Source: a virus. Taken from it: DNA of 21,678 nt. A program made the position numbers and the translations under genes. A model generated the notes under the pieces. It did not search any database. It worked only from the letters and a program-made list of their open reading frames with translations, and had not been told where the DNA came from. The stretch lies in IMG/VR virus record IMGVR_UViG_3300047564_002314, positions 1 through 21,678 of that record; one strand, given 5' to 3'. Numbering within the stretch: the first letter of the stretch is position 1; each line of letters opens with the position of its first letter. Positions 11,378 to 12,290 of this stretch are shown piece after piece.

Positions 11378-11402
11378 AAAAAAAGGAGGTCCTGAGACCT
11401 CC
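11378..11402 (-). terminator. intrinsic terminator after the internal-head-protein-like gene
   Basis: On the minus strand a perfect 7-bp stem (GGAGGTC with GACCTCC), a TCAG loop and T7. It begins about 25 bases after the stop codon at 11428. Confidence 0.82.
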
Positions 11403-11427
11403 CAATGGACAGTTTCAAAAGTGGACC

Positions 11428-12129
11428 TCAGTCGGCACTTACACCAGTTTTTCTCTGTCTTTCAAGTTTCTTACCTTTTGGTTTTGAACCACCACCACCT
11501 TCTCCATCATATGCAACGTGACCATATTCAGATTGTCCACGAAGATAATTTCTATCTTTTTGAGTCATATTACTTCTTTGATAAGAATGCCAAGCAGGTT
11601 TGGTGGATTTCTTACCCCTGTTTCCAGCATCGGGATTACCAGTTCTGTCAAAATGTTTTTGGGCAGATTTTACTTTCTCAGTCTTTTCACCCCTTTTTGA
11701 GAATCCACTTGCTGGAGTTGTTCTTCTCTTATTAGCAAGGTCTCCAAATGCTTTCCTTGCCTTTGGAGTTTGTCCATAAGAACCTTCTGCTTCATCAATA
11801 TACTGTTCTCCAAGTTCTCCCATTGCTTTTTGCTTACGGAGTTTCTTAGGATTCTTTGTCTTGTCTGCAGAGTAGTTACTATCATCACCCTCAGGGTCTA
11901 TAGAACTACGATGTCTTGTAGATCTTTCTTCATCATCAATCTTTGCACGACTTCTCTTTGCTTCATCTGGAGAATACGTTCTACCACTGTTATACCATTC
12001 TTTACCTACGTGACCTCTCTTCTTGGCATCTGCAGAATCTTCTCTACGCTTGATATTTCTACGATTTGCCTTAAAATCCTTCATGGACATACCTTCAGCA
12101 ATCATCATAAACTCTTTAAACGTTTTCAT
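11428..12129 (-). CDS. basic protein with a T4 internal-head-protein-like capsid targeting start
   Basis: 233 aa from the ATG at 12129; a GTG at 12141 would put the start at the transcription start, so it is rejected. The N-terminus MKTFKEFMMIAEG closely resembles the capsid targeting sequence of T4 internal proteins (MKTYQEFIAEA), and I10-A11-E12 fits the (L/I)xE site cut by the gp21 prohead protease. The remainder is hydrophilic, rich in Lys/Arg/Ser/Gly/Asp with many KR pairs (RNIKRRED, KKLRKQK, NKRRTTP), as expected for a DNA-packed, co-injected protein. A perfect late promoter lies at 12150-12157 and a terminator follows, so it is a single late unit. Packaging is inferred from this pattern; the body of the protein matches nothing I know. 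Confidence 0.82.
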   Translation of the reverse strand: MKTFKEFMMIAEGMSMKDFKANRRNIKRREDSADAKKRGHVGKEWYNSGRTYSPDEAKRSRAKIDDEERSTRHRSSIDPEGDDSNYSADKTKNPKKLRKQKAMGELGEQYIDEAEGSYGQTPKARKAFGDLANKRRTTPASGFSKRGEKTEKVKSAQKHFDRTGNPDAGNRGKKSTKPAWHSYQRSNMTQKDRNYLRGQSEYGHVAYDGEGGGGSKPKGKKLERQRKTGVSAD

Positions 12130-12149
12130 ATTAGCAGACACTTTTTAGA

Positions 12150-12157
12150 TATTTATA
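12150..12157 (-). promoter_or_regulatory. T4-type late promoter (TATAAATA) for the internal-head-protein-like gene
   Basis: A perfect TATAAATA octamer on the minus strand. The expected start near 12144 is about 15 bases before the ATG at 12129. It overlaps the TAA stop of the 45-aa gene and begins within the T-run of the preceding terminator. Confidence 0.75.
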
Positions 12158-12290
12158 AAAAAGAAGCGTCTCGTTGATTGAGACGCTTCTTGAGTGATTG
12201 TCTTCGTGCTTTTGCTTGTCGAAGTGCTTGTGGTTTAAGTTTTCGTTTCTGTTCTTTCTTAGAGTGATGCTGCCAATTTGGAGTGTTCAT
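12153..12290 (-). CDS. 45-aa very basic protein whose 3' end encodes a terminator
   Basis: Starts MNTPNWQHHSKKEQKRKLK and continues QALRQAKARRQSLKKRLNQR to DASFL. About one third of residues are Lys or Arg, and most of it would form a single amphipathic helix, so nucleic-acid binding is plausible but unproven. It begins 14 bases after the gp46 stop, with AAAGAA before the ATG. The last 12 codons are the two arms and loop of the terminator at 12158-12191, and the stop lies in the next gene's late promoter. The spacing after gp46 favours a real gene; overlap with the terminator means it could be a chance frame. I do not recognise it. Confidence 0.55.
   Translation of the reverse strand: MNTPNWQHHSKKEQKRKLKPQALRQAKARRQSLKKRLNQRDASFL
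12158..12191 (-). terminator. strong intrinsic terminator of the gp55-gp46 unit
   Basis: A 12-bp perfect stem AAGAAGCGTCTC (12161-12172) with GAGACGCTTCTT (12180-12191), a 7-base loop, then a T6 run on the minus strand. It lies inside the 3' end of the 45-aa gene. Confidence 0.85.

Follow-up and report, generated by a model that had tools for sequence, protein, structure and literature searches.

A predicted capsid-targeted internal-head precursor of a T4-like cyanophage, with two cassettes bordered by gp21-type protease sites

The internal proteins IPI, IPII and IPIII of phage T4, like Alt, carry a capsid-targeting sequence (CTS), are processed by the prohead protease gp21 and are injected into the host. 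Residues 4 and 7 of IPIII are required for targeting and residues 8 and 10 for processing, and gp21 cleaves after L/I-x-E (PMC9026906). The polyvalent proteins of phages and conjugative elements, for example P1 DarB/DdrB, have several domains each, and both packaging and injection are predicted for them (PMC5512222). Cyanophages have virion effectors of their own, among them the SAM hydrolase gp6 of S-CREM2 and NMNAT-like cytidylyltransferases. These carry enzyme domains and have CTS-like leaders (MKDFDSFLEE, MKNFSSFLTEA, MRFRQFIIEA and MKSFLQFLKEA). Our search of the open literature found no description of the cassette architecture presented here, which subscription journals could hold, and no paper that mentions DUF6321 or DUF3008.

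The window, by which we mean the whole stretch of 21,678 nucleotides analysed from IMG/VR record IMGVR_UViG_3300047564_002314, has on its minus strand part of a T4-like cyanophage genome. The genes there include gp22, gp23, tail tube, uvsW, gp55, gp47, gp46, a vWA peptidase, MoxR, gp45, speD, gp44 and regA. The gene that concerns us encodes 233 amino acids and has gp46 on one side and the vWA peptidase on the other (Table 1). A mechanical ORF call starts it at a GTG at 12141, which makes the protein 4 aa longer. We prefer the ATG because the GTG almost coincides with the expected start of late transcription. Compared with its orthologues L005, L006 and L007 (L numbers are our labels for the records compared), the gene has dN/dS values of 0.08-0.22, so it is a real gene under purifying selection. 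The protein has a pI of 10.0, with 56 K/R and 34 D/E residues. It matched nothing in Pfam, in PHROGs or in a PDB profile search, and AlphaFold2, given a 44-row alignment from which rows from public phage records were left out, reached a pLDDT of 54 and a pTM of 0.17 with no confident fold. We considered and rejected a homing element, since the nuclease motif is absent, as well as a tail or baseplate part and a chance resemblance to a CTS. Elsewhere in the window, at 351-929 near hsp20, there is an ORF that by eye resembles a GIY-YIG homing endonuclease with NUMOD-like repeats (SEETKxKM).

Table 1. Features of the predicted precursor gene and its surroundings (window coordinates)
Feature	Position	Strand	Remark
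CDS, predicted modular internal-head precursor, 233 aa	11428..12129	(-)	ATG 12129, stop 11428-11430
Leader of capsid-targeting type (MKTFKEFMMIAE, residues 1-12); gp21 predicted to cut first behind E12	12094..12129	(-)	T4 IPII/IPIII pattern
Cassette A, residues 13-105 (GMSMKDF...KNPKKLRKQKAMGE)	11815..12093	(-)	conservation limits
Linker, residues 106-113 (LGEQYIDE), gp21-type sites after E108 and E113	11791..11814	(-)	
Cassette B, residues 114-233 (AEGSYGQT...RKTGVSAD)	11431..11790	(-)	
T4-type late promoter box TATAAATA	12150..12157	(-)	exact, 28 nt 5' of ATG
Terminator-like hairpin after gp46	12161..12191	(-)	T-run merges into late box
Terminator-like hairpin after the 233-aa gene	11384..11403	(-)	

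The protein begins MKTFKEFMMIAEG, that is, the leader MKTFKEFMMIAE followed by GMSMKDF. We translated T4 ipII and ipIII, which are annotated as internal virion proteins, and both begin MKTYQEFIAEA, so the original prediction was right that the start parallels the T4 targeting sequence. The leader matches the MKT[YF]xEF ... IAE pattern of these proteins with two extra residues (MM). Relative to IPIII, F4 and F7 are conserved, and I8 and E10 are replaced positionally by I10 and E12. Set against MKTYQEFIAE, MKTFKEFMMIAE has what marks the CTS-type internal head proteins of T4, and it ends in the [LI]xE motif IAE12, at which gp21 cleavage is predicted. The IAE|G sequence that had been pointed out is present. 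The suggested search of other cyanophage proteins also bore fruit: MKT[FY]xEF with [IL]AE is the recurrent start of many independent genes in these phages.

Expression late in infection is predicted from the upstream sequence. The gene had been credited with a perfect late promoter, and the box is exact and stands in a place enriched before CTS genes, but the octamer alone is not rare. It occurs 4 times in the window against 1.7 expected, a count reached by 9% of shuffles, and by itself the exact TATAAATA fails to tell CTS genes apart from the background (2/26 vs 59/733). When position is considered, using NATAAATA, a late box lies at the corresponding place in 11 of 27 CTS genes and in 33 of 474 other ORFs (P 3e-6); about 60% of CTS genes have no late box upstream. 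The gene was also said to have its own terminator, and a hairpin does follow it, but hairpin counts scarcely exceed those of shuffled sequence. A nearly identical copy of the terminator-promoter sequence (window 12150-12191) is found in L022 around 80-121, before a different CTS gene (MKTFQEFVSEMS).

With its leader, small size, basic composition, gp21-type site and late box, the window protein resembles the T4 internal proteins. It differs from them in that its body has no sequence relation to theirs, and in having two cassettes and extra internal gp21-type sites. The body had been described as basic and low-complexity. Basic it is, but residues 13-105 form a strongly conserved cassette, which we call A. 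In a profile of relatives conservation sets in at E12/G13 and ends at the invariant G104-E105, and the median dN/dS of 0.137 across 38 copies means that purifying selection acts on it across contexts. Among 84,980 cellular genomes we found a single chance-like match of 26 residues, so cassette A looks phage-specific. The C-terminal half of cassette B is distantly related to cassette A (hhalign probability 97.3, E 1.7e-11), while 20 column-shuffled controls gave at most 0.9%. The motif [IL]xE is short, and the 233-aa protein contains 3 of them where shuffles lead one to expect 0.74, a difference of only P 0.03. Two cassettes and two further gp21-type sites make a small polyprotein more likely than one internal protein.

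We collected 41 distinct 8-aa contexts upstream of cassette A from several unrelated sequence families; they do not amount to 41 independent events because the junctions are partly related. E occupies P1 in all 41 and a hydrophobic residue occupies P3 in 39, while P2 varies (A, E, D, K, N, S, V, M). The background rate of hydrophobic-x-E is 2.3% per position. Directly before cassette B, [ILVMF]xE is found in 10 of 10 distinct contexts. A general comparison of breakpoints with sites gave weak enrichment (121 of 652 BLAST alignment starts within 3 residues, 96 expected), and it was too noisy, so we used the cassette-specific contexts in its place. The DUF3008 and EF-hand-like cassettes have no [IL]xE directly before the anchor we used.

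These contexts bear on the likeliest alternative, a single cut. According to this reading the only cut takes off the CTS at IAE12, the host receives residues 13-233 as a single protein of 25 kDa, and LGE and IDE are incidental. The T4 internal proteins are cleaved once, at the leader, IAE12 alone sits in a proven kind of position, and the related C-terminal halves of A and B would fit a tandem two-domain protein. Against it, hydrophobic-x-E precedes cassette B in every distinct context, and cassette A also exists with only a CTS, as an ORF of about 106 aa, in L017, L020, L021 and L031. We regard a single cut as unlikely.

We think it likely instead that the 233-aa protein is a CTS-targeted, gp21-processed, modular polyprotein of the internal head that is probably injected; its packaging, cutting and injection are what we infer. 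The precursor would be expressed late and carried into the prohead core by its leader. There gp21 would cut after IAE12, with a probable further cut behind LGE108, IDE113 or both. This would leave two small basic peptides in the head, A of about 11-12 kDa and B of 13 kDa, which would associate with the packaged DNA and then be ejected with it into the cyanobacterium. The precursor would be one member of a modular system in which interchangeable cassettes with gp21-type borders are fused into internal-head polyproteins, some of which would include enzymes (SAM lyase, NMNAT-like).

The relatives show how widely cassette A is shuffled. We found 143 in IMG/VR and kept 80. In these, the ORFs with cassette A range from 104 to 1174 aa, and the cassette stands by itself after a CTS, terminally or centrally; the T4 internal proteins show neither such lengths nor such shuffling with enzymes. 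It is found at five or more genomic sites: gp46/peptidase as in the window, peptidase/MoxR, gp16/gp17, beside an NMNAT-like gene near gp61/nrdA, after nrdB, and near Dam. The window copy shares 91% DNA identity with the copy at the NMNAT site in L018; most of those at the adjacent peptidase site are less close to it. Near-complete genomes have one strong copy apiece, plus weak relatives. CTS-like segments also lie within long ORFs (S-SZBM1_194 TYREFIAE|G, L067 SYKDFIAE|G, L054 SFKEFLEE|G, L008 YKTFQEFMMIAE|G), which suggests that CTS genes have been fused.

The fusion partners of cassette A include SAM lyase, an NMNAT-like enzyme, DUF3008 and DUF6321, and the cyanophage virion effectors are homologous to cassettes fused with it. 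PF23780 is absent from the 233-aa protein, in which, unlike those effectors, no enzymatic domain is recognised. It is present in L016, L022, L029, L054, L067, L081 and S-SZBM1_194. L016 (2775-3581) and L010 have a CTS, cassette A and a SAM-lyase domain (PF23780; E 1.4e-17 in L016) in a single gene, and the product is probably a head-delivered anti-restriction enzyme. Sequence comparison of the SAM-lyase cassette with the PDB gave chance matches only. The nearest annotated cultured homologue of L016 is S-CREM2 gp6 (58%), whose leader is the MKDFDSFLEE given above. L075 has the order CTS, NMNAT-like, A, DUF3008-like, DUF6321. The DUF6321 cassette matches 525 phage records. After DUF6321 genes, many cyanophages have a small conserved gene that begins MK(S/T)(F/Y)K(S/Q)F(L/M)SES(V/I), a candidate CTS protein (S-SZBM1_191, SSCSM1_30, L036 from 5188, L062 from 5839, L068 from 7162); its product was undetected in the two virion proteomes checked.

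Polyvalent proteins (PMC5512222) likewise join disparate domains in one polypeptide, but their domains are large and accompanied by an autopeptidase, whereas the window cassettes are short and bordered by gp21-type sites. The 233-aa protein, with no Pfam or PHROG match, does not combine at least two domains with different known activities, as they do; L075 and L016 come nearer. The best cultured homologue with both cassettes is S-SZBM1_194 (UNH61311.1) of Synechococcus phage S-SZBM1, in which A is followed by B as in the window at 51-53% identity. It differs in its length of 707 aa, in the DUF3008-like sequence before A and in its place between gp16 and gp17, where the window gene comes after gp46. 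Downstream of A-B it has other cassettes, including an internal CTS and a SAM-lyase domain.

Published virion mass spectrometry links the family statistically to proteins found in virions. We used S-SZBM1 (PMC9146016), S-SCSM1 (PMC9602691 and the annotation of its record) and S-CREM2 (PMC10665884), covering the parts of these genomes that we read. Matches to ORFs with cassette A are found in 11 of 33 non-canonical virion proteins and in 2 of 157 undetected ones (Fisher P 5e-8); of these two, 192 is itself a CTS protein and 194 a cassette polyprotein. An anchored CTS-type start is found in 6 of 35 virion proteins against 5 of 252 (P 6e-4). The SAM hydrolase gp6 was detected in S-CREM2 virions with 19 unique peptides (PMC10665884), and the NMNAT-like enzyme in virions of S-SZBM1 (PMC9146016), S-SCSM1 (PMC9602691) and S-CREM2 (PMC10665884). 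The authors caution that such S-CREM2 proteins may be purification contaminants resulting from high expression (PMC10665884). S-SZBM1_194, with 30 tryptic peptides of usable length, is missing from the 30 virion proteins reported for S-SZBM1, as are its CTS proteins 191 and 192 (PMC9146016). Since S-SZBM1_194 has no N-terminal CTS of its own, it may be targeted differently. The Cas9-like nuclease and the kinase reported in S-CREM2 virions (gp12, gp14; L098 105-2714 and 2980-5247) have CTS-like leaders. A LGLxSDGHGGWYD-type segment after the leader is common to them and the NMNAT-like virion enzymes (L075; L099 26820-28049), and it is perhaps a second packaging cassette.

That S-SZBM1_194 went undetected could also be taken to mean that the window protein is a minor component of the prohead core like T4 gp67, gp68 or gp22, which would serve in assembly and be fragmented and mostly lost. 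Cleavage at [LI]xE does break the T4 core proteins into several pieces (PMC9026906). We find this improbable, since T4 gp22 and gp67 are acidic and have no IP-type leader, whereas the window protein is basic, its fusion partners are enzymes and proteins detected in virions, and the gene varies in architecture and place as core scaffold genes do not. Less probable still is a basic late protein that stays in the cell, for example one that binds DNA or RNA, with a CTS-like start by chance: it would agree with the lack of direct detection, of a predicted fold and of a known domain, but against it stand the recurrence of this start in many independent phage genes and the enrichment of fusions to virion proteins.

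The class to which the original prediction assigned this gene, injected internal head proteins, is well supported by the leader, the gp21-type site, the late box and the virion-linked cassettes, with the membership of this particular protein predicted from its sequence. Its view of a single protein missed the two cassettes, the two further gp21-type sites and the shuffling of cassette A. We believe the more important finding to be how the protein is built, with two cassettes, as one of a family of shuffled internal-head polyproteins bordered by protease sites. More tentatively, and with doubt slightly outweighing belief, we propose that heads carry a modular payload of several effectors from which maturation would free peptides and anti-defence enzymes, with cassette A as a mobile injected peptide occupying its five or more sites. 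By analogy, the most likely role of A and B is interference with early host defence or another host process. An anti-defence role in particular is plausible only by analogy with relatives, where a SAM-lyase cassette takes the corresponding position.

In hundreds of cyanophage records at least one such cassette is present under the label of a hypothetical protein. If these cassettes are head cargo released by the protease, then a large group of uncharacterised proteins would be delivered, just as infection begins, into the photosynthetic cells that are most abundant. Among these proteins is a SAM-lyase family that is known to block restriction.
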